From Mesaphorura yosii (Eukaryota > Arthropoda > Collembola > Poduromorpha > Tullbergiidae), in NCBI GenBank assembly GCA_009869945.1, contig WIXG01000171.1, positions 99,683 through 163,682 on the forward strand: a DNA stretch of 64,000 nt. The letters run 5' to 3'. The first letter of the stretch is position 1. Every line of letters begins with the position of its first letter. The position numbers and the translations under genes were made by a program. The notes under the pieces were generated by a model. The model had not been told where the DNA came from and did no database searches. It was given only the letters and a program-made list of their open reading frames with translations. Of the stretch, positions 37,562 through 64,000 are shown piece after piece.

Positions 37562-40500
37562 ATGGTCATAGAAAAGAAATCTGAGGGACCGGATCCTGAT
37601 CCAACTGAGTACTTGTTCGTTTCACTTGAGCAGAAGCGAGTGAGTACTTTTATTTTTTTTTAAACCCGTTTAATACTAAGAAACTTAAGTACGAAACATT
37701 TAACTTAAGAACAAAGAGTAGTTACGTTGAGTTGAGTATATGAATCAATTAATGCCCTCCATATCTACTTCCTCATCCTCTGGCTCAAGTTGGAAATTAT
37801 TCACGCAAATTAGGGTAACATTTTTCGCAATGAGCTCTGATGGAATTCCGAGCGTGATCCTGCTTTTGAAATCCTTCAAGCTGGCGATGTAATTACAATT
37901 CTCCTTCTTGCATTTAAAGCTTCCAGACATAGTCTCCAGAAAATGGACTCTTGCCTTTGCTGATTTATGATAATAATCAAGTTATCGTTATATTCCTTCA
38001 GTAAAGTAATTTAACAAGTTTAAGAAGTACAATAAGTTGTCTTATCTCATCAAATGGGTCCGATTTCCACTTCACTTTTCCTGACTTAAATTACGTTGAA
38101 GGTATCAACTGTTAATTGAAGCAATCATATATGGACTACAATAAATGAATTTCAGATCGATCAAACCAAGCCTTACGATGCTAAGAAGGCTTGCTGGGTG
38201 CCTGACGAGAAGGAGGGGTACGTGCTGGGTGAGATTCAGGGTAAGTAATTTAATTCTTCTTACCTTAGTGTTTAGTTTTATTTGCATGAATTTGAACCAA
38301 TGAAGTTAGGGGAAGATAGGTTAAGTACCTTTAACAAACCAACACCCTTGCACTTCTTGCACATGCACAAATATATGCCCAGTTTGACGTAGTGCTTTCC
38401 GAGTTAAGGAGAGAGAAATATTTGTTCATCCTAAAGTCAAACAATTAGAGATAAGTGACTGAACGGTTTCATCAAATCATACCGGTTCAAACAGACTTAT
38501 TTTGGATGGCCCGGGTAGATTTTCTGCGTTCATCTTCTTATCGCTTGAAACTTGTAAATTTATCTGTTTTTGTGTAGGTACCAAAGGTGACCTCGTCACT
38601 GTTGGTATCCCCGGCGGAGAGGTAAGCCGATTTTTAAGAGATTTGCCCAAGACAATCAAGCATTTAGCATTTGCGCGTACCAGCCGACGAATTCTAGCAT
38701 TTCAGCATTGATTCTCGCAAAAGAAATAGAGCACGCGCATTTCCTAACGTAAAATGGCCATAATTTTCTTAATCAAGCTTTAAAGCTTCCAAACAACCCC
38801 CAAAAATATGAGCCCCGCTAATATTCTTGATCTTACTATGCCTTTGCTATAACGCACCAAACTGTGAACTGCCCGTTCGTAGAAGAAAGTATTCAAAAAG
38901 GAACAAGTTTCTCAAGTGAATCCACCGAAATTCGAGAAAATTGAAGACATGGCTGATCTGACGTACTTAAGTGACGCTTCTGTCCTTCACAACTTGAAGC
39001 AACGTTATTACGCGAGGCTAATATACGTGAGTACCCCGAATGAGGACAGCAATGCTTTAAGCGCGTTTTTCTTTTGTTTCTTTTTCGTTAACACTCCGAC
39101 CGTATCCAACAAAAATCTGCATCGTCGCACGCACGGTAAATACGAATACGAATGCGAACACAAAAGGTAAAACACTTCAAAAAAGAGCTTGTAACACAAG
39201 TGAATCCACCAAAATACGAAAAATGTGAGGACATGTCCAACTTGACGTATCTTAACGATGCTTCTGTGCTCCATAACTTGAAACAACGATACTATACTAA
39301 ACTAATCTACGTAAGTGTCATCTTCATGTAGGCCGTTTAATTATTCCTCTTTTTCTCTCTTTCACCTGCTCTTAAGATGTAACCCAGCCATCCTGCGTCG
39401 GCATTTTCCGTTTCTGCCTGTTTTTGCAAAGATGTCCTATTAATTAATTTACACACTTGCCTTTAACAAGTAACATTGTTTGGCATTTCACTTTCTCTGC
39501 TTTTACAGTTAATTCACTGTGACCTATTGGCTAACCTTCAAGTTTCTTGCACTAATTTTTCTAATCCTGCATGATAAAATTGTCAATCGGTCGATCCTCA
39601 CAGATCGATCCAAATTTCATCTATGAAAAGAGACTTTCATAGAAATCACGATTATTCGCGTGAAATATTCACTTGCCAAGTCACAAGTGAAGCTTAGGCT
39701 TTCAGGAAACCGCTACCGCATTGTCATGCAAAGTCTTATGCGAGTGTACTCAAAAATGACACAAAACTCAGTTCTCAACCGAAATAATATCGGATCTCGC
39801 GCAAAGAACGCGATGACCCGACCACCGGCGTGCCCGTGCTCAAATGAAATGCAATGTTATACTGCAGTTGACCGTGACCGTTGTCGAAATACAATTGTGT
39901 CATGCCTCAAGCCTGTGAAATCAAACAACTGATACGGTTGGTTTTGGTGACGTTACGTTACAGCATTGAGCATTGTTGTCCATGTTCAATATTTCTATTT
40001 TAATCATTGTGAATCCCTTTCAACTCCATGCCTTTGCCTATGCCCTTCCAACCTTGAAAGCCGAAACTGAAAGTTGAGATGAAAAGAGAATAGAAAGAAC
40101 GCGTACACAGCTCACGTGCAATGCCAGCAGTTTGGATATTTTGGATCGCGAATGCAAACTGACTGTCAGAAAAAGCAGCGAGCCTCGCGGCTTGCGCTTC
40201 GTGTTTACGTGCTCAATGGACCAGGCAAGCAGGCAAACAGTCGAGACTTGCGTCAGAGAAATATTTTCTCCGTTTTCAAAAATATTATTCATCTTGCAGC
40301 GCATGCACATTTGCCATTTGCGTCTTGGCGTGGTCTTTCCTCAACAAGCAGAAGCAAGCAGAGCAAACACAAACATTAGGCTTCACGTCATATCAGTCAC
40401 TCAGTCAGCCAACAATTTTGCCTTAAAATAACGAGCCAGCGACAGACAGACAAAGCATAACAGCAAAAATCGGTAATCCGAAATCGGGATCGAACGGGAG

Positions 40501-43500: not shown

Positions 43501-46500
43501 AATAAAAGATAGCAAGATTACGCAGAAGTGGAAAGTGGAAGTCAGGTTCTTGCCTGAGAGAACGTCATATAAAGTAATTTTTATTTAGCCACAATAAAAG
43601 TCTCAAGTACAGGTCACAGGCTGCAAGTTAGCAAAGAAAGGTTTCAGTTAATCAGTTAATCGCATCATATTCTTATCAGTTACACTAACTTAAACGTGAT
43701 TACTAATTCCTCATGATGTCCACAGCGGAGAGTCTGGTGCCGGAAAAACTGAGAACACGAAGAAAGTCATTGCGTACTTTGCCAACGTCGGCGCCAGTGG
43801 AAAGAAGGATGATAGCAAAAAGGTGGGGCATTTTTTCAGCAGCTAATTTATCCTGGCTATCCATAATTAATGTATGTTTCGACCTGTCCATGTCCAGGGA
43901 TCCCTTGAAGATCAAGTCGTGCAGACTAACCCTGTACTGGAAGCGTTCGGTAACGCCAAAACAACGCGTAATGATAACTCTTCACGTTTCGTAAGGCTAC
44001 GTCTTGAATCTTTAGTTTTCAGTAAGAATTCCGTGCAGTATTAAGAATCCTATCACTTGCAGGGTAAATTCATCCGTATTCACTTCGGGCCAACTGGTAA
44101 ACTGGCTGGTGCTGACATCGAGTCATGTAAGTCACAATTCACAAGATGGCAATCCAGATTCAAGCACGAGCTACTTACAAATGCGCTTACGCGTATGCGC
44201 TTTCTGAACAGATCTTCTGGAGAAGGCTCGTGTCATTTCGCAACAGCCCCTGGAGCGTTCTTACCACATTTTCTACCAAATGATGTCCAACGCCATCCCC
44301 ACGTTGAAGGGCATGTGCTGCCTCAGCAATGATATCTATGAGTACCATTACGTGTCCCAGGGTAAAACCACCATCCCGAACGTCGATGATGGCGAGGAAA
44401 TGTTGGCCACCGATGTAAGAGCAAGCCAAGTGTCTTTCACCCAACAAAACAGCAAGATCCATCCTCGACTGCGTCGCCTTTAATGTCTAATGCGTGCCCG
44501 TGCCCTCATTTCAGGATGCCTTCAACATCTTGGGTTTCTCGCAAACGGAGAAGGATGAAATCTACAAAGTCACCGCCGCCGTCATGCACATGGGTGAAAT
44601 GAAGTTCAAGCAGAGAGGTCGTGAAGAACAGGCCGAAGCTGATGGCACCGCTGTACGTAACACGCAAGAAACTGCAACTGCCAAACTAATCTAATTGCTC
44701 ATTGCCTTGCTTTTACAGGAGGGCGAGCGTGTCGGCAAGCTGTTGGGTGTTGATGGCCAAGAACTGTACAAGAATTTCTTGAAGCCCAGGATCAAGGTCG
44801 GTAACGAGTTTGTCACCCAAGGTCGTAACAAGGACCAGGTAATTGAATACCACTTGAATACTGGGTCGGGCCATTGTTGATGGATGAATTAAATTGCTGA
44901 CTTGCTGACATGAGATTTGCTCGATTTCAGTGCTACTACTCTGTCGGCGCTATGGGCAAAGCCATGTTTGACAGGCTGTTCAAGTTCCTGGTCAAGGTCT
45001 GTAACAGAACCCTGGACACAAAGCAGAAGCGGTCCCATTTCATTGGTGTGCTGGATATCGCCGGCTTTGAGATCTTCGACGTAATTCTCAGGCTACAGAC
45101 TTATGACATGAATCGTCGTGACAATTTTTAACGAGAGATTTTGGTTTTGTTACGCAGTTCAACGGATTCGAACAGCTTTGCATCAACTTCACCAACGAGA
45201 AGCTGCAGCAATTTTTCAACCATCACATGTTCGTACTCGAACAAGAAGAGTACAAACGTGAAGGAATTGACTGGGTCTTCATGGTACGAGATAAATGTAG
45301 AGAATTACGGTTATAATATGTTTACACGTGATTTGCTTTCTCTTTCAGGATTTCGGTATGGACTTGCAAGCTTGCATTGAGCTGATGGAGAAAGTAAGCT
45401 GATTTTTGATTGGCGAGTCAGTGTCCAGACGCAGTTAAAGTTAATGCTCGCCATTGTTATTGTAGCCTCTGGGCGTCTTCTCCATTCTTGAGGAAGAGTC
45501 TATGTTTCCGAAAGCCACTGACAACACTTTCAACGAGAAGCTGAAGAACAACCACTTGGGCAAGTCACCAAACTTCATCAAGCCCAAGCCAGCCAAGCCT
45601 GGCCAGCAAGAAGCCCACTTTGCCATTGTGCACTACGCCGGCACTGTAAGTGAATCCGTCGATGTCAATTTTGAAGCACACGCACATGACCACGAGTTGG
45701 CCAACACAGCCAGCCAGCCATGGATTCGTATAATTGACTTGTCTCTCAGGTACCATACAATCTGACTGGATGGCTCGAGAAGAACAAGGACCCGCTTAAC
45801 GACACAGTCGTCGATCAGTTCAAGAAGGGTACCAACAGTGTCGTGCTCGAGATTTTCGCTGACCATCCTGGACAGTCTGGCGGTGCTGATGCTGGTGGCA
45901 AGGGTAAGTTTTCCCACTCGCCAGAAACAGGGAAACGCCATCATATGATTAAGAAACAGTTTCAGCAATTAGCAGCATATAAAAGATTTATTCATAGCAG
46001 CCTTTGATTCGATGACAGGACCGTCCTTCCATGTTTACGTTAAATATTAAATAAACTATTATTAAATACAACTGTATGATGCAGGTGCTAAACGTGGGAA
46101 GGGCTCGGCCTTTCAAACAGTGTCAGCCCTCTACAGGGTAATTACATGGATTCTGTCCACCTTTCTCTTCCCAGTAAAAGCTTATCTAATTGTGAATGCG
46201 CAATGGCTGACTGAATCGCTTTGCATTTAGAATCTCTTCTATTCTCTTCTTCTTTGACCTTTAACATTGCAATTGCACAAGGAAATCGTAAGGCGAGTAA
46301 CGAATCGAAGTTACATTTACACATCTCCGAAAATCCGACGTCAGAGACCCGATCCCGAAATCTATTTTAATAATTAAATGAATTATTCATTTACAAACAG
46401 GTGGTAAGAAGAAGGGTTCAGGTTTCGCAACTGTATCATCATCCTACCGGGTTCGTTTAATTTACTTCAGTTTTAAGTCGTGGCCCCCGTTCGTTCTAGT

Positions 46501-49500
46501 TTGACAATCTTACACGGGTGCTACGTACTCGTCCCGACTCAAGCAACTCCTTAAAGAAAGGAACTTGCCACCACCCTCCTACCTTTTGATTATTATATTA
46601 GAAATTAGAACAACTAGAGTTATAGTTCGTAAATTTTTATTCCCGCGTTCAAAATATCGTTCAGTGAACTGAGCTGATCTGTTTTGTTCCCCATTCTCAG
46701 TCCTATCAATCAATTGCAGTAAAACAAGATATTTTAATCACTTACTGCCACGAATATTTCATTAATTACTTGAAACTTAATTTGGCTTTGCTTAGATTTC
46801 GGAGTTGTTTTTGTGCTGTGTGACAAAATAATTAAGAATTAATGAGAATTGTGAATGTTGATTTTAACCAATGACGAATGCAGCATTTCATCGTGTACGT
46901 CGTAATGTCATTCGAATGTTAAGATTTTCTGTAAAATACGCTTTTTGGAATACAGTTTAATTGATCTGTTCCTTCTGTGGTTTGAATGGAGAGTTGTGCT
47001 AATATGCAATCGTACTCATAAACTTCACCTTCACAGGAGCAACTGAACAATCTGATGACCACACTTCAAGCTACATCTCCGCATTTCATCCGTTGCATTA
47101 TCCCCAATGAAGTTAAGACACCCGGTAAGAGCCTGAAACTCGGCTTTCGGTTTCGGTGCAGCATAATCAATAACTTTAATATGCTATTGTGGCTTTTCTT
47201 CGTGACAGGTTTGATTGACTCGCATTTGGTGATGCACCAGCTGACTTGTAACGGTGTGCTTGAGGGTATCCGTATTTGCCGAAAGGGATTTCCCAATAGA
47301 ATGGTCTACCCCGACTTCAGACACAGGTAATTAATCGCAGGCGGAGACTTGAGCCGTGCCGAGCTGGCGCGGCGGTTTCTTCGCAATACTGCAAAAATGA
47401 AGACATCATTTCTCCCAAGACACTGTAACTGTAATTAAGGCAATATCATGGCGAATATTTAGATACAAAATCTTAGCACCCGCCGCCATGGACGCTGAGA
47501 AAGACGAGAAGAAGTGCGCTCAGATCTGTCTCGACTCGATTCAACTGGACGCTGACAAGTACCGATTGGGTCACACAAAGGCAGGTTTAACTTTTAAAGT
47601 GGCATCGTCCCGAGTCTCCCGAGTTCTAATTCTTCGGGTTTCATGGTGGATTAGCACACAGGACATGATCCACGAATACGAACAAACCCATGAAACCCGC
47701 GTTGTAGCGTTTCCCCTTTTTTCGCCGTGCCGTTCCATCCGTTTAATTACTGATTTTAAGGATGCGAGTCACATACAAGTGAACATGAAGAAAATCTTCA
47801 CCCTGTACGGCTCTGCCCTGTGCAAAGTGTAATCAATCAATCAGCAGCGAGTTGATTTGATCTTTTCCGGTGTGTTTCCTTTTGTGTGCCCGACCACTAC
47901 GTACAATAACCATATAAGAATATGGTACTGCCATTGCCACTACTTCTTCTCTGTTCTGGTGTTGATTCGTTGATTGTGATTGATTTGGTAATCCATATCT
48001 GTTGCTCTACGCTGCGCTGCTGCAACACTTGCCAGAAGCTCGGAGATCGTTCTGATTCTGAGGAAAAGCTAAATGAAATTGACTCTCATCTCGCAGCCGT
48101 CGCAGCCGAGGCGCAATCCATGTAAAAGACTAAAGATGCATCTCTCCACGAAAGGATAAAGCAGAACTAAAGAAAGAAAACTCTGTTCTGCGTTACGATG
48201 CGTTGAAGCGTATTTAATTTGTGACGTACTTTTTTCTGTTTCTTGTACTTTCTCTGATGTGCCGCCCTCACCTGACCACCTGACCTGCCCTGGTTTTCGT
48301 TTGTACTTGTACACAAAAAGGTACAAAATCCTCGCCCCACAACAAGTGGCGAAGATCACCGACGAAAAGAAGTGTGCCGAGATTATCCTGGACGCTGTAC
48401 ATCTCGAAGCTGACCAATTTCGATTGGGGCATACAAAGGCAAATACAATTGTCTAATTTGCTGAGTTTTGAGTGGCGTGTCGTTGCTGTGTAGTGTTTCG
48501 TTTTCGTTTATTTGCTTTTACGTTACACAAAAGTAGCAATTTCTTTGCTAATAAGCGTGACACTGTAGCAAAGTTATTTGAGTCACGTCTTTGTATATTT
48601 TATGTAGTTTTGTTGCGTATGATTTTCCAAATTTTGTATCTGCTTACTTGTTTTGTAAGCTTCACCCTGATTTACGTGCTAAAATCGATGCCGATGCACC
48701 CGCAGGTCTTCTTCCGTGCCGGTGTGCTCGGTCAACTTGAAGAAATTCGTGATGACCGTCTGGCCAAGATCATCACCTGGATGCAAGCTCACATTCGCTT
48801 GTTCCTCACCAAGAAGGATTACCAGAGACTTCAAGAACAACGGTAAACACCAGAAAATAGCGCCGTGCGCCATTTTACTGCGTCAACGTCTGCGGTCTTC
48901 ATGTCATTGCGCTTTCCTTTTCAGTATCGCGTTGCAAGTCGTCCAGAGGAACTTGCGTAGATACCTGCAGCTCAGGACCTGGAAGTGGTTCACTCTGTGG
49001 CAGAAAGTCAAGCCTCTCATCCACGCTGGAAGAGCTGAAGATGAGATCAAGGTGAGTGGGTGCATATGCTTGGCCTATTTAATTGTGTACGCAGCAGCAG
49101 TGCCGGTGCCGGTAGTCGTTATTCATAATTAGAAATACCGAATGGCCACTTGCAAAATTACGGCCTATTTAATTATGATTCATTGCCCTCGGGGGACTTT
49201 CTTCTCGGTATAGTCCCAGCTGCATGGCATGGCGGGCACCGCTCTGGCTGAGTGGTCTTAAAATAAAACTTTATTATAATTGAAACTTTTGCCGCTAGTG
49301 TACAGTTGCAGGGCAAATATTTAATGCATAACTTACTTGCCCATGAAGGCCATGAAAGTAAGTTCGCAGTCACGCCATGGCCACGAGTGTGACGAGAATC
49401 CTTGAGAAGGTGTGCAACATTTCTAGCGTCACTGTTTACGAGTTTACGTTTACACTAAAGTCCCGAGCAGGAAAGTTCCGAAACGCGAAACGGTGCCCCG

Positions 49501-52500
49501 AACGAGCCGGAGCGATGTATCATATTTACCTTTGGCATTTCTCGATTTATGCTCCGCGGAAAACGTAAAGTCGTAATCCGTTCTCTTTAATAAACACTTC
49601 CTCAAGCAAGCGCCCGCAGCATCAGCTCAGGATGTCAAGCGTGAAAAAATATTTCTTTTTCCTTTTCATTTGCATTCGTCTAAAATAATCATTCCATTCC
49701 TGCTTGCTCCCGAGCTCCAAGTACAAAGTGTAGGTGGATTTTCTCTACGTGTTTGCCTTGCGAATACGACGGAAATAAAGATGTAGCCTTCTAGAAATGT
49801 TTTGAAAAAGTATACGTAAGAGTAATATTTCAGTATTTCACCTGCTCCTTCATCTTTCTTCCTTCACTTCACTGCTCACTCCATTCTCGTGGGGCACCAT
49901 CGAAGGATGGGCCCATGACGAAGACAGTCTTTTACGCATACATACGACGAATTTCAGTCCAGTTTTCGCTTTTAACGTGCCGTAATCTATTCTGCTTATG
50001 CGCTTAAAGTTAAGAATTCATACCGACTGTATTTACGAAACGAATCGAGTTACAACTAATTAATTTAATTAAAATAGCAGTTAAAGCGAAAAATGATAAG
50101 AAGTTAATACTTACTTAATAGAAAAATGCACACGTGCATGAAGTTTTGTGATTCTGCGTAATTCACGCAATTTGAGGGCAGTCTTTAATAAGCCACGCCA
50201 GAATGGTCGCTGCTGCAGACGACTTCCAGCACTCCGCTGGCCTGGCTAGCGCCGACTTCTTTACTAAAGATGACCTTCTAAAACAGAAAATGGAGGAGAA
50301 GGCCATCAAGGCCGAGGAGGCACTGGCGAAGGAGGAGCTGCGGCGCAAGGAGACCGAGGAGAAGAACGCCAAGTTGGCACAGGAGAAGCTGGAGCTTGCT
50401 GCCCAGCTCGAGAAGGAGAAGGGAAGTCTGGGTGACATCCAGGAGAAGATCTCCAAGATCTCCGCACAGAAGGCCGACCTCGAGTCACAGCTGGGCGTAA
50501 GTCACGCTAATCATTTCCAGACTGTTTTCAACAATTCAGCTGACCCACTTTGATTGACGATTGACGACTTTGAATTTGAATTCGGGAATGACGTCAGATG
50601 CAAATGCCAATAATAGCACGACACTTGCCCTACGTAACTCGCAGCTGTATCTTTTTTTCGCATTTCGCAACATTCCACTCCACTTAAAAATGGACAGAAA
50701 TAGTAATAGGCTAAATATAACGTTGAGAAGTCTGTAGTGTTTACAAATCTTCGAATGTAAGCCACTCAAATTTCCAACTTGTACGATGGCGATGGATCCT
50801 TGCGTGGGATTCGGCAGGTTTACGATTACGTTTTCGTACGAAAGAAGATGAATTACATGCTGACTGTAAGCAGTACCGAAAGAAACCCTTCCGAAATGAA
50901 GAGACCGTCTTGTCCCGTCTAAATAAGTAATCTCCTTATAAAAATATGACAGGTGTGTATGAATGCACGTCCATAAATTATATAATTCAGGCTACGCGTG
51001 CTTTTGCTGATTTTGCTAACGAATCTCAAGTCTCGATATTAAGAATGAGTTCAAATTCCTTACAAAGTTCAGTGAATGCTGTTCAATTACGAAAATGCAA
51101 AAATGCACGGGAAATGAACAAAATTCTTAAATTCCTCTTCAAAAATTTGACGAAGTGTACTTGACTTGAATTTTCTGACACAGAATTGACGTTAGCACGG
51201 ACGTGAACGTAAAGCTAAAATTATTCGAGAGATAAGTGGAAACAACAAAATTTTGACTTTACTTGACTGAAATTCAATGTCAGACTGAGCTGGCGACTTT
51301 TTGTAATGCATTTTTATGCTTTCACGTGCACAGGACACCACCGAGCGCCTGCAACAAGAGGAGGATGCCCGCAATCAGCTCTTCACCTCAAAGAAGAAGC
51401 TCGAGCAAGAGCTCCAAGGACTCAAGAAAGAAATTGAGGACATGGAACTCAACCTGCAGAAGGCTGACGGTGACAAAAACACGAAAGACCACCAGATCCG
51501 TACTTTGAACGATGAGATCGCTCACCAGGACGAACTCATCAACAAGTTGAACAAGGAAAAGAAGCACATGCAAGAGAGTAGCGCAAAGACTGCTGAAGAT
51601 TTACAGGTAAATTCGTACATTGCATTGTGCATGCACTGAAGAATTCCGGCGAATTGCATTGCTAAGCATTGCTGAATTTCTGATTTGTGCGCTGACAGGC
51701 GGCAGAAGACAAAGTCAACCATTTGAACAAAGTAAAGGCAAAACTGGAACAAACCTTAGACGAATTAGAGGACTCGCTTGAACGCGAGAAGAAGCTTCGC
51801 GGAGACATTGAGAAGGCCAAGAGGAAGGCAGAAGGTGATCTGAAGATCACCCAAGAAGCTGTGAACGATCTCGAACGAAACAAGAAGGAATTCGAACAGG
51901 CCATTCAACGAAAGGATAAGGAAATCTCTTCACTCACGGCTAAGCTTGAGGAAGAGCAGTCTCTTGTTGGAAAACTCCAGAAGCAAGTCAAGGAACTTCA
52001 GGTAAGCGAAGCTATTATGCGAGGTAGGTCGATTTTTCAAGATACAGAAGCAGAAACGTGAATTTTTACACGTCTTCAGGCACGCATTGAGGAGCTTGAG
52101 GAAGAACTTGAAGCCGAGAGACAAGCACGTGCCAAAGCAGAGAAACAGCGATCTGACCTCGCACGAGAACTCGAAGAATTGAGCGAACGCCTGGAGGAGG
52201 CCGGTGGCGCGACTGCCGCACAAAGTACACGCACGCTTTAAGCCAAATTCTTTAAGAGGCGTGGCATGTTGACATTAATGTGACAATTTGCTCAATTGCA
52301 GTCGAATTGAACAAGAAACGCGAGTCTGAATTGACGAAACTCCGTCGCGATGTCGAGGAAGCGAATATTCAGCACGAGTCGTCGATGGTCAACCTCCGCA
52401 AGAAGCACAACGATGCTGTTGCTGAAATGGCCGAACAAATTGACACCCTCAACAAACTGAAGGCCAAGGCTGAGAAGGACCGATCACAAATGGCTGGAGA

Positions 52501-55500
52501 ATTGAACGATGTCCGAGCTGCGATGGACCACCTGAGTAAGTTAAACAGGCGCTGAAGCTTCGGGGACCCTTGAAGAATTTTATTGAATGTGACGATTTCC
52601 GAATAAAATTCATGGCGTCAATTGAACGTGCTTATTTGTGAATAGGCAACGAAAAATCTGCCCAGGAGAAACTGAACAAAACGATGCAGCAAAACTTGAA
52701 TGATCTGCAAACCAAGCACGAAGAGGCTTCAAGGACACTTTCCGATCTTGACAACTCCAAAAAGAAGCTCGCAAACGAGAACTCGGACCTTTCACGCCAG
52801 CTTGAGGATGTTGAGTCTCAAGTGTCGCAGTTGAACGCTCTGAAGGTGCAGCTCGCCCAACAGCTGGAGGACACCAAGCGACACGCCGATGAGGAAGCAC
52901 GCGAACGCGCCACACTCCTCGGCAAATTCCGCAACGTTGAGCACGATCTGGACGGGCTCCGAGAACAGGTAAGCCAAGTTTAGGCAGTTATTATTGACAC
53001 TGAATAAGTGAAGAAGTCATGAAAGAATGACATAAGGTTGAGTAAACTGAGAACAAATATACTAAGTTAGTAATTAGGCTTTATAATTTGATGAGTATAA
53101 TGAACTATAATTACTAAATTTCAATTCGAACAGCTTGACGAAGAGTCCGAGGCCAAGGCAGATCTCCAGAGACAGCTCGCCAAGGCCAACGCTGATGCTC
53201 AGTTGTGGCGTGCCAAGTACGAGTCTGAGGGAATTGCACGCGTCGAAGAGCTGGAAGAATCCAAGTAAGTAGCCATATCATTTGATTACCGCAGCAGAAG
53301 TCATGGGACAATTCTCATTTGACATTTTTTCTATTTTCTAGGCGCAAACTGCAAGCCCGCCTCACGGAGGCTGAGGAGACGATCGAATCCCTCAACCAAC
53401 GGGTCATCGCCTTGGAGAAGACGAAGCAGAGACTGTCTGCCGAGCTGGAGGACATGCAGCTTGAGGTCGAGCGCGCCCAATCGATGGCGGCGCAAATGGA
53501 GAAGAAACAAAAGTACTTCGACAAAATCATCGCCGAATGGAAGACCAAGGTCGACGATCTTGCTGCTGAACTGGACGCTTCTCAGAAGGAGTGCCGCAAC
53601 TATTCCACCGAACTCTTCCGCCTCAAGGCTGTCTTCGAGGAGGGACAAGAACAACTTGACGCAGTTCGACGTGAGAATAAGAACTTGGCTGATGAAATCA
53701 AGGACCTCATGGACCAGATCGGAGAAGGTGGACGAAATATCCACGAGATTGAGAAGGCAAGAAAGCGACTGGAGGCTGAGAAGGAGGAGCTCACCGCCGC
53801 CCTCGAAGAGGCCGAGTCCGCTCTGGAACAGGAAGAAAACAAGGTCCTTCGTGGCCAGCTTGAACTTTCTCAAGTTAGGCAAGAAATCGACAGAAGAATC
53901 CAGGAGAAGGAAGAAGAGTTTGAAAACACACGTAAGAATCATCAACGCGCACTGGACTCCATGCAAGCTAGTTTGGAAGCTGAAGCTAAAGGAAAGGCCG
54001 AGGCACTTCGCATGAAGAAGAAGCTCGAGTCTGACATCAATGAACTTGAAATTGCTCTTGACCACTCGAACAAGGCGAATGCAGAGGCGCAAAAGAGCAT
54101 CAAGAGGTAGTGTTTAATGCAATTCTACGCAACTGACATTCTTGACAATTTCATTTTCTTTAATTCTGGCAATTTATCGTTTCAGATATCAGCAACAACT
54201 CAAGGAGCTCCAACAACAGCTTGAGGAAGAACAACGTGCTCGCGATGAGACGCGTGAACAGCTCCAACTCGCCGAACGACGAGCAAATGCTCTGGCTAAT
54301 GAACTGGAGGAATCAAGAACACTCTTGGAACAGGCCGACCGCGCCAGGAGAACCGCAGAACAAGAACTCACCGACGCTCACGAACAACTCAATGAATTGT
54401 CTGCTCAAACCGGTTCGCTGGCAGCCGCCAAGAGGAAGCTTGAAGGAGAACTTCAAACTCTTCACGTAAGTGAACTTAATTTCAATATGCCATTAAAATT
54501 AGTGGACTAATAATCCAATGATGATGATTCTTCAGGCCGATCTTGAAGAAATCCTCAATGAAGCCAAGAACTCTGAGGAGAAGGCGAAGAAGGCCATGGT
54601 TGATGCCGCCCGACTGGCCGACGAGCTCCGTGCCGAGCAAGAGCACGCGCAAGCCCAGGAGAAGATGCGCAAGGCGATTGAGACCCAGATCAAGGACTTG
54701 CAAGGTAAGACATATCCTCACTGGATTTTAGTGTTACAGTATTTTGTTGCTGTATTAATGATATCGAGAACGTATCACTAGATATTAACAGATGGAAGAT
54801 CTTTGTATTAAGAAATTTGTAAAGTGGAACATTCATCATGAAAGAGAAAGAAATAACGAATGTATGCAAGGGGACTAAGCTGTTACTTAACATCAAGGCG
54901 ATTTCATATATTAAAATTGTAGTGTGAGATCCATCTTCTTCTTCTTTGATTCTAGCAGAACGAAATCTTCATCCTTGCAATGCCATTTTGTAAAGTTCGA
55001 TCGCTTACGGGTGTGGTGATCTTTACGCAATTTTCCGTGGCACAAATCAGGGGCATGTTCATCTCAGCTAAATTAATTGCTTCATGTTTCTCCTTGTTGG
55101 TCATTAGTGATAGGAAGTTGCCAACTTCAATTCTTTTATTTTAACATTTTCCACTGCGGTCTGTCTTCCAAATCAATAACAAACTCCCGATATCGACCAT
55201 AAGCCTATGACTTCATAATTGCAGTGCGCCTTGACGAAGCCGAGCGTGAAGCGCTGAAGGGAGGCAGGAAGATTATCGCCAAGCTGGAAGAGCGTGTCCG
55301 TGCAATTGAGCAAGAACTTGATGGCGAGCAACGGCGACATGCTGATGCCCAGAAGAACCTGCGCAAGGGAGAAAGACGCATTAAGGAACTCACGTTCCAG
55401 GCTGAGGTAAGTTTGATTAAAACATTTTAATAACTATTCAACTACAACATTAGATGTGATTATAAGAGGAGTAGGTGGTTAAGTAAGTGATAAGTCGGAA

Positions 55501-56958
55501 GAAACCGTAAATTAACAGAACATAAATTAACATGGCGCATCTCTAAAAAAAAGAGAATATCTTCCTGAGACTCTTCTTGCTGGCTTCGTCAGCCATGTTT
55601 TGAAATCGAAGAATCGAAGTTATTCGACTCTTTTGACTGAACTCTTTCGTTGCTCTTTCCGGCTTCTTTTTTCTGCTTTCTGATTGGTGGAAACCAAAGG
55701 AGTTAAGGAAAGAGAAAGAGGACCGAGAGAGAAAGAAAAAAAACGAACGGAAAGCAAATGTTGTTTGCGCTGTGCAGTGCAGCATCCATGATTGATAACA
55801 TTCACGTTCTTCATTCATTTTGCAGGAAGACCGAAAGAATCACGAGAGAATGCAAGACCTGGTCGACAAGCTCCAACAGAAGATCAAGACTTACAAGAGG
55901 CAGATTGAGGAGGCCGTAAGTTGAATATTTTCTTTATCCCGTCGTGGCAAACTTGTGAAATGCTAAATTAATATCAAATTAAATCGGGTTGACTTTTTCA
56001 GGAGGAAATCGCTGCCTTGAATTTGGGTAAGTTTCGATTAGTAATAATTTATTATCCGTTTGTCATAGTATATATACTATTTATATCTTACTATATCTCA
56101 TTTATTATATTAAAGCTAAATTCCGCAAAGCACAGCAAGAACTTGAGGAGACGGAAGAGGTAAGCCTGTTGCTTTATTTGCATAATTAGAAATGCAATTT
56201 AGCAATTCGAAACAATCCTCACATCCAATTCTAAAATAGCGCGCCGATATGGCGGAGCAGGCGATGACGAAACTTAGAGCAAAGGGACGTGCTAGCTCAG
56301 CTGCACGTGGATTGAGTCCACCGGTAAGATGATAAAACGCATTTATGCTAAAACTTAGATCCTTATCATTAATCATTCTTTACTCTGTAAATCAATGCAT
56401 CTTGATTGTTGAGTAACTTGCAAATTCATGTCTCTACTTATGTATCTCTCTTTGTTTCTTTCTTTCCGCTCTGTCGTATTCTGTCGTAATCTTCAACCTT
56501 TTCTCGTCGCACGTCGTCGGCCATCATGAATCCGAATCTGGTCACAGCCAAATCCAAGAAGACAAATCGCCTTTGAATAAACTTTCTATTACAAAATAAT
56601 TTACTTGCAATATAACGTCAACAGAGTAAGTACTCAAGTACGATTTGTGTGGAAGTGGAGCGTGTGCTAGAGAAAATGAGTGAATTTGAATTTAAATTGA
56701 ATTCCTGCTCGTTGATTTACCCCAAAATTTGCAAAACTGAATCTTCATTGGTTTGAGTTTATTTTCCTCGATCTTCCATTCCTTTGAACGGATTTCAGTT
56801 GATCTACCTTTTAATTCAAGATTTTGTGTTTTCTAGCCTACAAAACCGTTACGATTCTTGGAATTAACTTTTGTATTTGAATTTTTCAGTATCGACCACC
56901 AAGATATGCTGACGCCAGATCCTACGATCCCTATCAGAACTCGGACGGCTTCTTCTAA
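37562..56958 (+). CDS. Mhc: Muscle myosin heavy chain (class II), complete, with alternative exons
   Basis: This is the thick-filament motor of muscle. Coding exons: 37562-37639, 38156-38240, 38578-38621, [38883-39026 or 39167-39310], 41394-41550, 43072-43099, 43726-43822, 43898-43990, 44063-44126, 44212-44414, 44515-44652, 44719-44838, 44931-45080, 45158-45283, 45349-45393, 45466-45645, 45750-45903, [46085-46137 or 46401-46450], 47037-47124, 47209-47326, [47463-47580 or 48321-48438], 48706-48842, 48925-49051, 50287-50496, 51334-51606, 51699-52001, 52080-52224, 52302-52535, 52646-52968, 53134-53264, 53342-54106, 54186-54465, 54536-54704, 55225-55406, 55826-55915, 56002-56026, 56116-56159, 56240-56323, [56548-56580 or 56890-56958]. 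Phases close at every junction, giving 1957 residues. Visible motifs are the P-loop GESGAGKT, switch I NDNSSRFGK, switch II DIAGFE, the reactive-thiol helix [12 protein letters not shown], and an unbroken heptad-repeat rod from about residue 850 to 1930. No frame break was found. Confidence 0.97.
37745..37930 (-). CDS. Small antisense ORF (61 codons) inside the first Mhc coding intron
   Basis: The frame runs from ATG at 37930 to a stop at 37745, opposite to Mhc, between its first two coding exons. The peptide begins [12 protein letters not shown] and ends with an acidic stretch ([11 protein letters not shown]), a more protein-like composition than most chance frames nearby. No family was recognised, and no polyadenylation signal or intron is evident. 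It may be a chance ORF, a nested small gene or a retrocopy fragment. Confidence 0.2.
   Translation of the reverse strand: MSGSFKCKKENCNYIASLKDFKSRITLGIPSELIAKNVTLICVNNFQLEPEDEEVDMEGIN
38883..39026 (+). CDS. Mhc: Mhc alternative motor exon, version a (equivalent to fly exon 3)
   Basis: The exon has 48 codons in phase 0, AG before and GTGAGT after. It encodes the segment with [17 protein letters not shown] and ends RYYARLIY. It aligns without gaps to version b, which begins 140 bases downstream. In Drosophila the equivalent exon pair lies near the N-terminal motor region around the nucleotide pocket and changes motor kinetics. Confidence 0.93.
39167..39310 (+). CDS. Mhc: Mhc alternative motor exon, version b (equivalent to fly exon 3)
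   Basis: The exon has 48 codons in phase 0, the same length as version a, with [17 protein letters not shown] and ending RYYTKLIY, followed by GTAAGT. The two versions differ mostly in the first ten residues and at positions 17-30. Because both are 144 bases, inclusion of both would keep the frame, so mutual exclusion must be enforced by splicing rather than by frame. Confidence 0.93.
39311..41393 (+). other. Mhc intron after the alternative exon pair
   Basis: The 2.1-kb intron shows no third copy of the NPPK-type exon and no other recognisable exon. It runs from GTAAGT to an ATCGTAG acceptor. Long introns beside mutually exclusive exons often hold splicing control elements, but none can be named here. 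Confidence 0.5.
41551..43071 (+). other. Mhc intron before the 28-base exon
   Basis: About 1.5 kb between the exon ending ...AYTDMLT and the 28-base exon. No further coding exon was seen. Confidence 0.5.
43072..43099 (+). CDS. Mhc: Mhc 28-base microexon before the P-loop
   Basis: The acceptor TTTACAG and donor GTAAGT enclose 28 bases encoding the core of NENQSMLIT, directly N-terminal to GESGAGKT. It enters in phase 1 and leaves in phase 2, so skipping it would shift the frame ahead of the ATP-binding loop. Confidence 0.92.
46085..46137 (+). CDS. Mhc: Mhc alternative loop-2 exon, version a
   Basis: The 53-base exon enters in phase 1 and leaves in phase 0. It encodes [18 protein letters not shown], the actin-binding loop 2 at the 50/20-kDa junction, followed by GTAATT. 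Because 53 is not a multiple of three, joining versions a and b in one mRNA would shift the frame, so the pair must be used one at a time. Confidence 0.9.
46401..46450 (+). CDS. Mhc: Mhc alternative loop-2 exon, version b
   Basis: The 50-base exon has the same entry and exit phases as version a and encodes [17 protein letters not shown], one residue shorter. Its sequence is nearer to the constitutive loop 2 of fly Mhc (GKKGGGFATVSSAYK). The donor CGG|GTTCGT is weak compared with that of version a, so regulated use is likely. Confidence 0.9.
46451..47036 (+). other. Mhc intron after the loop-2 pair
   Basis: About 590 bases of AT-rich sequence between loop-2 version b and the exon beginning [11 protein letters not shown]. 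No third loop-2-like exon was seen. Confidence 0.5.
47463..47580 (+). CDS. Mhc: Mhc alternative converter exon, version a (equivalent to fly exon 11)
   Basis: The 118-base exon enters in phase 2 and leaves in phase 0. It encodes [18 protein letters not shown]...RLGHTK, part of the converter that transmits motion to the lever arm. The donor is AAG|GCAGGT: a GC donor, since the only nearby GT, 4 bases downstream, would break the frame with the next exon. Inclusion together with version b would also break the frame. Confidence 0.92.
47581..48320 (+). other. Mhc sequence between the two converter exons
   Basis: The 740 bases begin with the GC donor GCAGGT and end at the ACACAAAAAG acceptor of converter version b. 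No third converter-like exon was seen. Confidence 0.5.
48321..48438 (+). CDS. Mhc: Mhc alternative converter exon, version b (equivalent to fly exon 11)
   Basis: The 118-base exon has the same phases as version a and encodes [18 protein letters not shown]...RLGHTK. The two versions share the start, KKCA and the last residues and differ between. The donor AAG|GCAAAT is again GC, with no usable GT nearby. The next exon begins [10 protein letters not shown] at 48706. Confidence 0.92.
49052..50286 (+). other. Mhc intron between lever arm and rod, containing the candidate internal promoter
   Basis: The 1.2-kb intron separates the motor/lever-arm part (ending AEDEIK) from the first rod exon. Its last 84 bases are open and in frame with that exon from an ATG at 50203. 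A CACGTG E-box lies at 50131-50136, and the AT-rich word ATTAAAATAG, one mismatch from a MEF2 site, at about 50069-50078. It corresponds to fly intron 12, which holds the myosin rod protein promoter. Confidence 0.5.
50203..50496 (+). CDS. Alternative first coding exon for a myosin rod protein-like isoform
   Basis: An ATG at 50203 opens 28 codons ([14 protein letters not shown]... ending TKDDLLKQ) that run in frame straight through the rod exon's acceptor (CTAAAACAG|AAAATGGAG at 50286/50287) into [14 protein letters not shown] stop codon at 50173-50175 precedes the ATG in the same frame. Within the 28 codons a TACTAA word (branch-point-like) and the acceptor still serve full-length Mhc. A transcript starting in the intron would make a motorless rod of about 1136 residues with a short unique N-terminus. 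Drosophila Mhc makes such a product (myosin rod protein, MRP) from a promoter in the equivalent intron; its unique N-terminus is longer. Transcription here is inferred, not shown. Confidence 0.6.
50497..51333 (+). other. Mhc intron within the rod
   Basis: About 840 bases with no recognisable exon, between the rod exons ending QLG and starting [11 protein letters not shown]. Confidence 0.5.
54705..55224 (+). other. Mhc intron within the distal rod
   Basis: The 520-base intron runs from GTAAGA to AATTGCAG. No exon-like sequence was seen. Confidence 0.5.
55407..55825 (+). other. Mhc intron before the KNHERMQDL exon
   Basis: The 419-base intron contains a purine-rich AG/AAG tract around 55640-55760. 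No exon was recognised. Confidence 0.5.
56002..56026 (+). CDS. Mhc: Mhc 25-base microexon near the rod C-terminus
   Basis: TTTTTCAG and GTAAGT enclose 25 bases encoding EEIAALNL, in phase between KRQIEEA and [12 protein letters not shown]. Skipping it would break the frame. Confidence 0.9.
56324..56332 (+). CDS. Mhc: Mhc C-terminus by retention of the last intron (adds Val-Arg, then stop)
   Basis: If the donor after ...ARGLSPP is not used, translation continues for two codons (GTA AGA) and stops at TGA 56330-56332. This gives the shortest of three possible C-termini. Whether it is made depends on a polyadenylation site in this intron, which was not identified. Confidence 0.3.
   Translation, partial: VR
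56548..56580 (+). CDS. Mhc: Mhc alternative C-terminal exon, short version
   Basis: After the acceptor GGTCACAG, ten codons ([10 protein letters not shown]) and TAA follow in the correct phase. An AATAAA at 56576-56581 overlaps the stop codon and could support an early poly(A) site. It parallels fly exon 18, which provides a short alternative tailpiece. The acceptor has a moderate pyrimidine tract, so the call is less certain than the terminal exon. Confidence 0.5.
   Translation, partial: PNPRRQIAFE
56581..56889 (+). other. Region between the two alternative Mhc C-terminal exons
   Basis: About 310 bases that are 3' UTR of the short-tail form or intron of the long-tail form. They end in a T-rich tract and TTTTTCAG. 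Nothing else was seen. Confidence 0.5.
56890..56958 (+). CDS. Mhc: Mhc terminal exon, long C-terminal tailpiece
   Basis: After a strong acceptor (ATTTTTCAG), 22 codons rich in Tyr, Pro, Asp and Arg ([15 protein letters not shown]... ending GFF) lead to TAA. It follows ARGLSPP in phase 0. It corresponds in position to the fly exon 19 nonhelical tailpiece, though the sequence differs. Confidence 0.85.
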   Translation, partial: YRPPRYADARSYDPYQNSDGFF

Positions 56959-57807
56959 ATCAGAAGCACCAAAATTTCGGACAGCGAAAGCAATTTGATT
57001 CGACACGAACGCCAAATTGGGCCGAGACAAGAACTCTACGTTTCTGACAGTTTTTCTAGTTTACGACGACGCGACGACCAGAAATTGAAATTCAGAGCGA
57101 CGAGGACAAGAAATTAAATTATACATTAGCTTAACGTTTGTCTCTTCTAATCTGTACTGTACTCTTTATCTTCTAATTATATACTACTTGGTGGATAGGA
57201 TTCTTCCCCACGGAAGTTTTCTCCACATATATGTGAGCTATCTAGTCAACTTTAAATTATCGACCTTCGGGTTTCTTCACTTTAGATGAATTCGGCTTAC
57301 GATAAGTTAAATTAGTGTAGTGAGGTAATTAAGCGTGCAGTGCGATAACAATGATTCAAACAATATCTCTTGACCGTTTGCAATGGAAAGAATGGCAAGC
57401 GAGCACTCAGTGCAGTTAATGTTTAGAGTCGGAATGATTTCTTTCATAACATGATGACGACCTTTTTGACTTCAGCAAGAACACAAACATGCATTTGACG
57501 ACACGACGACGACCACGAAATCAGTGGAAGAAGTCGATTCTGAACCGGACTAGACTGCAATTAAAATCTTCTGGCGCTGAATCGCCATTTTAACATTGCA
57601 GATTGGTCAGAGATTCGATCGTGGATGCTAAGATTATACGATTAGATTATTTGAAGTAGCTGACTTGACTTTCAAAATTGTTACCAAATATGTTAATTAG
57701 AATTATTGGGACCTTGCCATGTCATGCAGAGCGGAGTGCCTCCACCTGCGCCTTTAATCTTTGCCTTTCTGTGCTGTGTTTAAAATTGAGCAAAATTGAT
57801 GAATAAA
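56959..57807 (+). terminator. Mhc 3' UTR and candidate polyadenylation signal
   Basis: No further coding sequence follows the stop at 56958. The best AATAAA on this strand is at 57802-57807, which would give a 3' UTR of about 0.85 kb. The exact cleavage site is not visible. Confidence 0.4.
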
Positions 57808-58666: not shown

Positions 58667-59475
58667 ATGGCATCCTGGAAGGCGAAACTAAACTTTCCAA
58701 AGGCTTCTTCAAAAGCGACAGCTACAACCTCCTCAGAAATTCCCGTCGATAATGCCAATGAGCCTCAGCCATCGACGTCACGAGCCATGGCTCTGGAATG
58801 CAGCTTAGGGTTGGGCACTAGCGAGCAAGCGACTGGGCTCGCTCCACCGCCAAGTAAGTTGACCGGTACCGGTGATCCTTGCGAATGAGTCAACTGGGAT
58901 TGAAATATTTATGACTTCTAATTTCTACAGACATAAAAGACGTACCCGCAGTTCGCGACTGGTTGAATAAAAAGATGGTCTCAAATCCCGAGGTGGCTGA
59001 TCAAGAGTTTGTGGGCTTCTTGTATGCTGAAAGGATCAAAACATTTATTGACAACAAATGGCCAACTTGGTTGGATGATGCCAAGACCAACGATTCCAGC
59101 GGCAGGAGAAGCAGCAGGAAGAGGAGCGCTGCAATTACCGAGCCGGGCCCAGACCTCTGCATGGCGTATGCACTGGCAATGGCTGGATTTATGTATTGCA
59201 CCGAAGAAAAGGAGGTCAAGTGCTTCGTCTGCCATCGGCGCAAAAATGTAAATGAATTTTCCAACATCACTGACCCCTGGGAAGCTCACAAAGAAATGTT
59301 TTCCGAGTGTCCCTTAATCAAATTGGGGAAGCGTGCCAAACCGGACGAGTACAATTTGAACACTGTTCTAATGCTGATGGGTGAATGTGAAGCTCTGCGG
59401 CTAGAATATGAATACCTTCAGCTTGAGAAGAGAACACAAGAAATGCTGGAGGAGTTGGACCAAGAAGAAGAATGA
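58667..59475 (+). CDS. Survivin/deterin-like BIR-domain protein, 243 residues, two exons
   Basis: Exons 58667-58853 and 58931-59475 join in phase 1 across a 77-base GTAAGT...CTACAG intron. Survivin-family proteins act in the chromosomal passenger complex at mitosis and can restrain apoptosis. Residues about 97-194 form one BIR domain: RIKTFIDNKWPTW, then AMAGFMYCTEEKEVKCFVC, then DPWEAHKEMFSECPLIK. The zinc ligands are C160, C163, H182 and C189. A C-terminal charged helix (about 215-243) matches the long survivin helix. The 60-residue N-terminus is Ser/Thr/Ala-rich and disordered, making the protein longer than human survivin (142 residues). A basic insertion (GRRSSRKR) sits before the first zinc ligand, and the C-to-H spacing is 18 rather than 16. 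A single BIR without RING or CARD favours survivin over other IAPs. Confidence 0.8.
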
Positions 59476-61749: not shown

Positions 61750-63996
61750 TCAACTGTCATAATTGCTCCCAGCATTAACTGATTCCTCTTTTTCGACTAA
61801 GTATTTTACTACCTCCAAATTCCCGTTGTTAGTAGCAATGTGCAGCGGTGTACCCTCATACTTGCTCTTAGCATTGACATCTGCCCCTTTTTCGACTAGG
61901 TATTTTACTACCTCCAAATTCCCGTTGTTAGTAGCAATGTGCAGCGGTGTACTCTCACTCGTGTTCTTAGCATTGACATCTGCCCCTTTTTCGACTAGGT
62001 ATTTTACTACCTCCAATTTCCCATTTATAGCAGCAATGTGCAAAGGGGTATAGTGACAGGTGTCTTCAGCATTAACCTCTCCCCCTTTTTCGACTAAGTA
62101 TTTTAATATTTCGAATTTCCCATTGTTGGTAGCAATGTGTAGCGGTGTATCCTCATACGTGCTTTTAGTATTGACATCTGCCCCATTTTCGACTAAGTAT
62201 TTTAATATTTCCAATTTCCCGTTGTTAGTAGCAATGTGCAGCGGTGTACCCTCATACCTGCCCTTAGCATTGACATCTACCCCTTTTTCGACTAAGTATT
62301 TTACTACCTCCAATTTCCCATTTATAGCAGCAATGTGCAAGGGCGTATAGTGACAGGTGTCTTCAGCATTAACCTCTCCCCCTTTTTCCACTAAGTATTT
62401 TAATATTTCCAATTTCCCGTTGTTAGAAGCAATGTGCAGCGGTGTACTGTCACTTGTGTTCTTAGCATTAACTTCTGCACCATCTTCGACTAAGTATTTT
62501 ACTACCTCCAATTTCCCGATTTTAGTAGCAATGTGCAGCGGTGTTCCCTCATCCGTGTTCTTAGCATTGACATCTGCCCCTTTTTCGACTAAGTATTTTA
62601 CTACCTCCAATTTCCCGTTGTTAGAAGCAATGTGCACCGGTGTACTCTCACTCGTGTTCTTAGCATTGACATCTGCCCCTTTTTCCACAAAGTATTTTAC
62701 TACCTCCAATTTCCCGTTCTTAGTAGCAATATGCAGCGGTGTGTTGTGATATTTGTTCATATTATTAACATCTACCCCTTTCTCGACAAAGTATTTTACT
62801 ACCTCGAATTTCCCGTTCTTTATAGCAATGTGCAGCGGGGTATCCTCAAACTTGCCCTTAGCATTGACATCTGCCCCATGTTCGACTAAGTATTTTACTA
62901 CATCCGATTTCCCATTTACAGCAGCAATGTGCAAGGGGGTATAGTGACCAGTGTCTTCAGCATTAACATCTGCCCCTACTTCAACTAAGTATTTTACTAC
63001 CTCCAATTTCCCATGGTTAGTAGCAATGTGCAGCGGTGAGTCCTCATACGTGCTCTTAGCATTGACATCTGCCCCATTTTTGACTAAGCATTTTAATATT
63101 TCCAATTTCCCGGTTTTAGTAGCAATGTGCATTGGTGTACCCTCGTACTTGCTTATTGCATTGACATTTGCTTCTTTTTCGATTAAGTATTTTACTACCT
63201 CCAATTTCCCGTTGTTAGTTGCAATGTGCAGCGTTGTACCCTCATACGTGCTCTTAGCATTAACTTCTGCACCATCTTCGACTAAGTATTTTACTACCTC
63301 CAATTTCCCGGTTTTAGTAGCAATGTGCAGCGGTAAACCCTCATACGTGCTTTTAGAATTGACGTCTGCCTCTCTTTCGATTAAATATTTAACTATTTCC
63401 CATTCCCCCTTTTTTATGGCAATGTGCAGCGGTGTGCTCACATCAAAGTGTTTATGGTCAACATCTGCCCCATTTTCGACTAAGTATTTTAGCACTTTAA
63501 GATGCCCAAATACTACTGCAATGTGCAGTAGTGCGTTGTGATATTTGTTCCTATCATTAACATCTACCCCTTTCTCGACAAAGTATTTTACTACCTCGAA
63601 TTTCCCGTTTTTTGTAGCAATGTGCAGCGGGGTATCCTCTAACTTGCCCTTAGCATAGACATCTGCCCCATGTGCGACTAAGTATTTTACTACATCCGAT
63701 TTCCCATTTACAGCAGCAATGTGCAAGGGGGTATAGTGACCAGTGTCTTCAGCATTAACATCTGCCCCTTTTTCGACTAAGTATTTTAATATTTCCAATT
63801 TCCCATTCTTAGTAACAATGTGCAACGGTGTACCCTCATACGTGCTCTTAGCATTGACATCTGCTCCATTTTGGAGTAGGTATTTTAATATTTCCAATTT
63901 CCCGTTGTTAGAAGCAATGTGCAGCGGTGTACTCTCACTTGTGTTCTTAGCATTGATATCTGCCCCTTTTTCGACTAAGTATTTTACTACCTTCAA
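61750..63996 (-). CDS. Ankyrin-repeat protein, 3' part only, at least 748 residues, no intron
   Basis: A continuous minus-strand frame enters from beyond the window edge and ends at TGA 61750. It consists of about 22-23 ankyrin repeats of exactly 33 residues (99 bases) with consensus TPLHIATNNGKLEVVKYLV followed by EKGADVNAK. The canonical TPLHIA helix start and GADVNA loop are kept in nearly every unit. Ankyrin arrays are protein-binding scaffolds; no other domain is visible, so the partner and location are unknown. The final half-repeat decays (EKEESVNAGSNYDS) before the stop. Repeats are unusually alike at the DNA level, with 297-bp and 792-bp higher-order periods. The true start is outside the window; the first in-frame methionine seen is near the edge and should not be taken as the start. 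It could belong to an arthropod lineage-specific expansion, to a laterally acquired gene or to a mobile-element passenger. Confidence 0.85.
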   Translation of the reverse strand: MKVVKYLVEKGADINAKNTSESTPLHIASNNGKLEILKYLLQNGADVNAKSTYEGTPLHIVTKNGKLEILKYLVEKGADVNAEDTGHYTPLHIAAVNGKSDVVKYLVAHGADVYAKGKLEDTPLHIATKNGKFEVVKYFVEKGVDVNDRNKYHNALLHIAVVFGHLKVLKYLVENGADVDHKHFDVSTPLHIAIKKGEWEIVKYLIEREADVNSKSTYEGLPLHIATKTGKLEVVKYLVEDGAEVNAKSTYEGTTLHIATNNGKLEVVKYLIEKEANVNAISKYEGTPMHIATKTGKLEILKCLVKNGADVNAKSTYEDSPLHIATNHGKLEVVKYLVEVGADVNAEDTGHYTPLHIAAVNGKSDVVKYLVEHGADVNAKGKFEDTPLHIAIKNGKFEVVKYFVEKGVDVNNMNKYHNTPLHIATKNGKLEVVKYFVEKGADVNAKNTSESTPVHIASNNGKLEVVKYLVEKGADVNAKNTDEGTPLHIATKIGKLEVVKYLVEDGAEVNAKNTSDSTPLHIASNNGKLEILKYLVEKGGEVNAEDTCHYTPLHIAAINGKLEVVKYLVEKGVDVNAKGRYEGTPLHIATNNGKLEILKYLVENGADVNTKSTYEDTPLHIATNNGKFEILKYLVEKGGEVNAEDTCHYTPLHIAAINGKLEVVKYLVEKGADVNAKNTSESTPLHIATNNGNLEVVKYLVEKGADVNAKSKYEGTPLHIATNNGNLEVVKYLVEKEESVNAGSNYDS
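61760..63996 (-). repeat. Tandem 99-bp repeat array with 3-unit and 8-unit higher-order periods
   Basis: The DNA of the ankyrin ORF is a tandem array of 99-bp units. The marker word TGTCTTCAGCATTAACCTCT occurs at 62061 and 62358 (297 bp apart, three units). The related TGTCTTCAGCATTAACATCT occurs at 62952 and 63744 (792 bp apart, eight units), followed in each case by the same order of distinctive units. Confidence 0.85.
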
Positions 63997-64000
63997 ATTC

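Follow-up and report, generated by a model that had tools for sequence, protein, structure and literature searches.

The muscle myosin heavy chain (Mhc) gene of the collembolan Mesaphorura yosii may well have a second product, a motorless rod that carries a leader of 28 residues and is made from a start within an intron; judged from the sequence, we hold this reading with moderate confidence. A second transcription start would lie within the intron preceding the first S2 exon. RNA starting there would have no upstream donor, so that the acceptor ending at 50286 would stay idle and 84 bases would be retained and translated. The first coding exon of the rod mRNA would run from upstream of 50203 through 50496, and translation from the ATG at 50203 would fuse the leader to the myosin rod. 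In the full-length Mhc pre-mRNA, 49051 would be spliced to 50287 and the same 84 bases would be removed. The predicted product is a rod of 1,136 residues, 28 of them unique, given the last exon used here. The start site, expression, protein and function of this motorless rod are presumed. The headless product would co-assemble through its rod into thick filaments, and by analogy with the myosin rod protein of Drosophila it may lower the number of heads in them.

The Mhc gene and its rod exons

The Mhc gene lies in a stretch of 64,000 nucleotides, analysed as a whole and called the window below, from an assembly of 93 Mb in 1,127 contigs. The light-chain-binding exon ends at 49051 after ...EDEIK with the donor GTGAGT, and is followed by:

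49052..50286, + strand: Mhc intron of 1,235 bases, with the light-chain-binding and S2 exons on either side
50287..50496, + strand: Mhc exon that opens the rod (S2); 70 codons, both ends in phase 0, followed by the donor GTAAGT
51334..56959, + strand: later rod exons together with the last exon, as predicted by reading frame, homology and splice words
Later rod exons, first set, + strand: 51334-51606, 51699-52001, 52080-52224, 52302-52535, 52646-52968, 53134-53264, 53342-54106, 54186-54465
Later rod exons, second set with the last exon, + strand: 54536-54704, 55225-55406, 55826-55915, 56002-56026, 56116-56159, 56240-56323, 56890-56959

This rod exon structure is consistent with homologues. The muscle Mhc chains 7kog, 8u95 and 3jbh, which we take to be those of Lethocerus, Drosophila and tarantula, respectively, were the best matches for each of the three tail stretches searched. 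Bit scores of 3jbh were below those of the two other chains (393 vs 433 and 424 in one tail stretch, 141 vs 150 and 144 in another). In phmmer searches with the 99-residue ORF 50203-50499, matches to the three chains started at residues 28, 29 and 24. Of the 28 upstream codons, nearly all thus lack a counterpart in these myosins, and homology supports 50287 as the true exon start.

Inspection by eye also revealed pairs of similar exons in the motor region, at 38883-39315, 46055-46470 and 47440-48440 (N-terminal, loop-2-like and converter-like, respectively), which look like mutually exclusive exons. Together with the similarity of the myosin, these pairs point to an arthropod, and the lower scores of the tarantula chain perhaps to a pancrustacean. 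COX1 was not found in the assembly. Elsewhere in the window, an unbroken frame of 749 codons, open at the window edge, occupies 61750-63999 of the - strand and holds 22 Ank stretches; these ankyrin repeats look strikingly alike. A frame with one BIR domain, presumably survivin-like, is found at 58915-59475.

The leader frame and the putative splice signals within it

The features at the 3' end of the intron are:

50173..50175, + strand: TGA, nearest in-frame stop upstream of the ATG
50203..50286, + strand: 28-codon in-frame leader, the predicted unique N-terminus of the motorless rod protein; overlaps the intron 3' end
50262..50267, + strand: TACTAA within the leader, branch-point-like, with a presumed splicing function
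50281..50286, + strand: AAACAG, the last two leader codons and, by homology, the putative acceptor of the full-length Mhc transcript

The original prediction placed 28 open codons from the ATG at 50203 exactly in frame with the rod exon, and translation confirms this: the 84 bases from the ATG (50203-50205) up to 50286 are stop-free and the frame continues into the exon at 50287. The predicted intron 3' end containing TACTAA and AAACAG was likewise found, at 50262 and 50281, within the open frame. An in-frame stop had been said to stand just before the ATG; the stop exists, at a distance of nine codons, and between this TGA and the acceptor 37 codons are open. The ATG lies in the context CCAGAATGG, with A at -3 and G at +4. 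Six ATGs are present within 49900-50202, which counts against an intronic start. The leader together with the exon matched no Pfam family at E 0.001, and the leader queried alone matched only itself in its own genome.

With 7 pyrimidines in 14 positions, the 50286 acceptor has the lowest value found, shared by three of the other 17 acceptors; though weak, it is not out of the ordinary within this Mhc gene. The survey of acceptors covered 18 sites, from 48706 to 56890. At five of the 18 an in-frame ATG is met upstream before any stop, in three cases at a distance of 28 codons or more (28, 29 and 58). The extensions and their coding scores in bits are:

Acceptor 48706: ATG extensions of 29, 6 and 4 codons, -11.6, +3.9 and +2.5
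Acceptor 48925: ATG extension of 58 codons, -13.3
Acceptor 50287: ATG extension of 28 codons, +5.7
Acceptor 51334: ATG extension of 6 codons, +0.2
Acceptor 54536: ATG extensions of 6, 5 and 4 codons, +1.5 to +0.7

An ATG-started extension is therefore not rare in itself; a coding-like one of such length occurs only at 50287 among the 18.

Coding signal of the leader

The scoring set 1,054 codons from the neck and tail exons of this same gene, with 50287-50496 excluded, against introns. The intron set comprised 7.8 kb of stretches chosen by eye, and the amino acid frequencies were general averages; one intron interval ends at 50100 for the base composition in the 28-codon window test and at 50150 in the other tests. 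Scores are -9.3 bits for the nine codons preceding the ATG, +15.7 for codons 1-19 of the leader and about -10 for codons 20-28. GC contents at codon positions 1, 2 and 3 are 0.68, 0.36 and 0.57 in the leader and 0.66, 0.30 and 0.60 in the Mhc neck and tail exons.

A somewhat unlikely alternative is that a GC-rich patch at the 3' end of the intron happens to be open and ATG-started, and gives no protein. The openness of the frame is by itself unremarkable, since about a quarter of the intronic 28-codon windows are open (1,710 of 6,990 on the + strand; 1,578 of 6,990 on the - strand) and three of the 18 acceptors, 50287 among them, have long ATG extensions. The last nine leader codons, which hold the acceptor and branch-point-like motifs, appear non-coding. 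Over all 28 codons the score of +5.7 is accompanied by a synonymous score of -3.1, both below those of 32 of the 33 exonic comparison windows, which are mostly training sequence. This full score was reached by 10 of the 1,710 open intronic windows on the + strand, by 26 of the 1,578 on the - strand and by 221 of 4,848 open shuffles; against open GC-matched windows (26 of 659) it is only modestly unusual, a point in favour of chance.

The best-prefix score, however, speaks against chance. The introns gave, on both strands and with nested ATGs taken separately, 156 frames that start with ATG and span 15 codons or more; none reached this score, and the top value among them was 11.5. Of 8,434 simulated ATG frames spanning 28 codons or more, none reached it either. 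Because the 19-codon cut was itself picked by the data as a maximum, the same maximum was applied to 40,000 dinucleotide-shuffled versions of the 84 bases; 9,663 of these were open and two reached the score. None of 100 open GC-matched 19-codon windows reached the 19-codon score. The onset of the signal, moreover, coincides with the ATG. The frame reads as coding from the ATG onward, strongly so in codons 1-19 and not in codons 20-28. Splicing may constrain the last leader codons, and coding the first 19.

Two other ways of using the same bases were considered. The full-length Mhc transcript might sometimes use an alternative 3' splice site, the in-frame AG at 50181 or at 50229, so that the myosin would be longer by 35 or 19 residues where head and rod meet. 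The open stretch leading up to the 50286 acceptor holds seven AGs, of which these two are in frame. Neither matches the edge of the coding signal, which lies at the ATG: codons 1-9 precede the 50229 site and score +8.4, against the negative score of the nine codons before the ATG. An intron-free Mhc sequence (see below) also has no insert at the junction, and we consider this alternative very unlikely. Highly improbable, too, is an intronic start with translation from the ATG at 50290, the second codon of the rod exon, by which the leader would be 5' UTR. The exon opens with the codons AAA ATG GAG, so this ATG has A at -3 and G at +4, but the context of the upstream ATG at 50203 is equally good and the coding composition of 50203-50259 would be left unexplained.

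Search for a promoter

An intronic promoter is presumed for the rod transcript of the preferred reading, translated from 50203. Ten consensus patterns were scanned over 49702-50202. TATA (two forms), MEF2, CArG and a shortened MTE gave zero matches in this interval. The TCAKTY Inr matched once per strand (0.78 expected), the looser Inr YYANWYY eight times per strand (6.0 expected) and the DPE once per strand (2.37 expected); the E-box matched twice (1.39 expected). One site stands out:

50131..50136, + strand: CACGTG, E-box-like, separated from the ATG by 66 bases; found once against 0.08 expected

Among the ten motifs only CACGTG is conspicuous, a weak regulatory hint, and none makes a convincing promoter motif in the scanned interval. 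A scan for bacterial-type promoters was near chance. The sole MEF2 match in L002 maps to window position 50711, downstream.

Relatives and a paralogous Mhc gene

Searches of viral contigs and genome contigs confirmed no relative that covers the intron; the latter gave one locus, L001 (NZ_JACYXE010000029.1). This is a low-coverage 4-kb contig in the assembly of Agilicoccus flavus that carries an intron-free, insect-like Mhc, and its presence in a bacterial assembly is probably contamination. It reads ...EDEIAKLEEK straight across the junction position. Being intron-free, it agrees with the 49051/50287 junction and is uninformative on the leader.

The same genome contains a second, divergent muscle-type Mhc gene (L003; G000:C8:590943-594164). 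By eye, its intron is at the same S2 position, with 4 open codons before the acceptor; of the two genes, only the main Mhc gene has the leader extension. Two to four Mhc genes occur in some chelicerates, according to Kollmar and Hatje (2014; PMC3912159).

Comparison with known motorless myosins

The myosin rod protein (MRP) of Drosophila is made from an intronic promoter and has a leader of 77 residues, in contrast to the 28 residues predicted here. It was reportedly found in Drosophila melanogaster by Standiford et al. in 1997, and is said to occur in the thick filaments of some muscles. Kollmar and Hatje (2014) present the Drosophila MRP as a muscle Mhc product without the motor and light-chain-binding regions, which arises by an alternative start to the first exon beyond them (PMC3912159). 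The geometry is the same in M. yosii: the gene is a muscle Mhc gene by the matches of its three tail stretches, and a contiguous open ATG frame, with a predicted start, lengthens the first exon that follows the motor and light-chain-binding regions. The corresponding exon has non-conserved in-frame 5' extensions in Tribolium and Dendroctonus, of 16 and 101 residues vs 28 here, which were likewise deduced from sequence alone (PMC3912159). Such widely differing lengths in two beetles would be expected if some of these extensions were accidental, which favours chance. The molluscan catchin or myorod is likewise a headless rod that the Mhc gene encodes and that has an N-terminus of its own; it differs in having a separate unique N-terminal exon and a start ~260 residues further into the rod (PMC3912159). 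The M. yosii leader, contiguous with the first S2 exon, does not have this layout.

To the original prediction, the arrangement looked like a conserved trick. The analysis gave no support for this: according to Kollmar and Hatje (2014), the N-termini of MRPs lack conservation even when Drosophila is compared with mosquitoes (PMC3912159), and the searches gave no relative covering the intron. Conservation, like the promoter, is presumed. A broader proposal is that the 84 bases are doubly selected, as coding sequence and as branch point and acceptor, and also that rods starting from this exact exon are ancient in arthropods while their leaders are rewritten in each lineage. Splicing would then limit the last few codons only, so that the remainder of a leader could be rewritten. 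We consider this combined proposal unlikely.

The rod predicted from the M. yosii gene is probably a further MRP-type case, of a kind already known, and the support for it is statistical rather than experimental. What is new is the statistical case for a coding role of this one extension. Kollmar and Hatje (2014) cautioned that without transcripts such isoforms cannot be predicted reliably (PMC3912159). If real, the M. yosii rod would bear on this caution over prediction from genomes only and would provide, outside Drosophila, an MRP candidate supported by sequence. Arthropod genomes may then be tested simply, by looking for an in-frame ATG ahead of the S2 exon at which the codon signal turns on.
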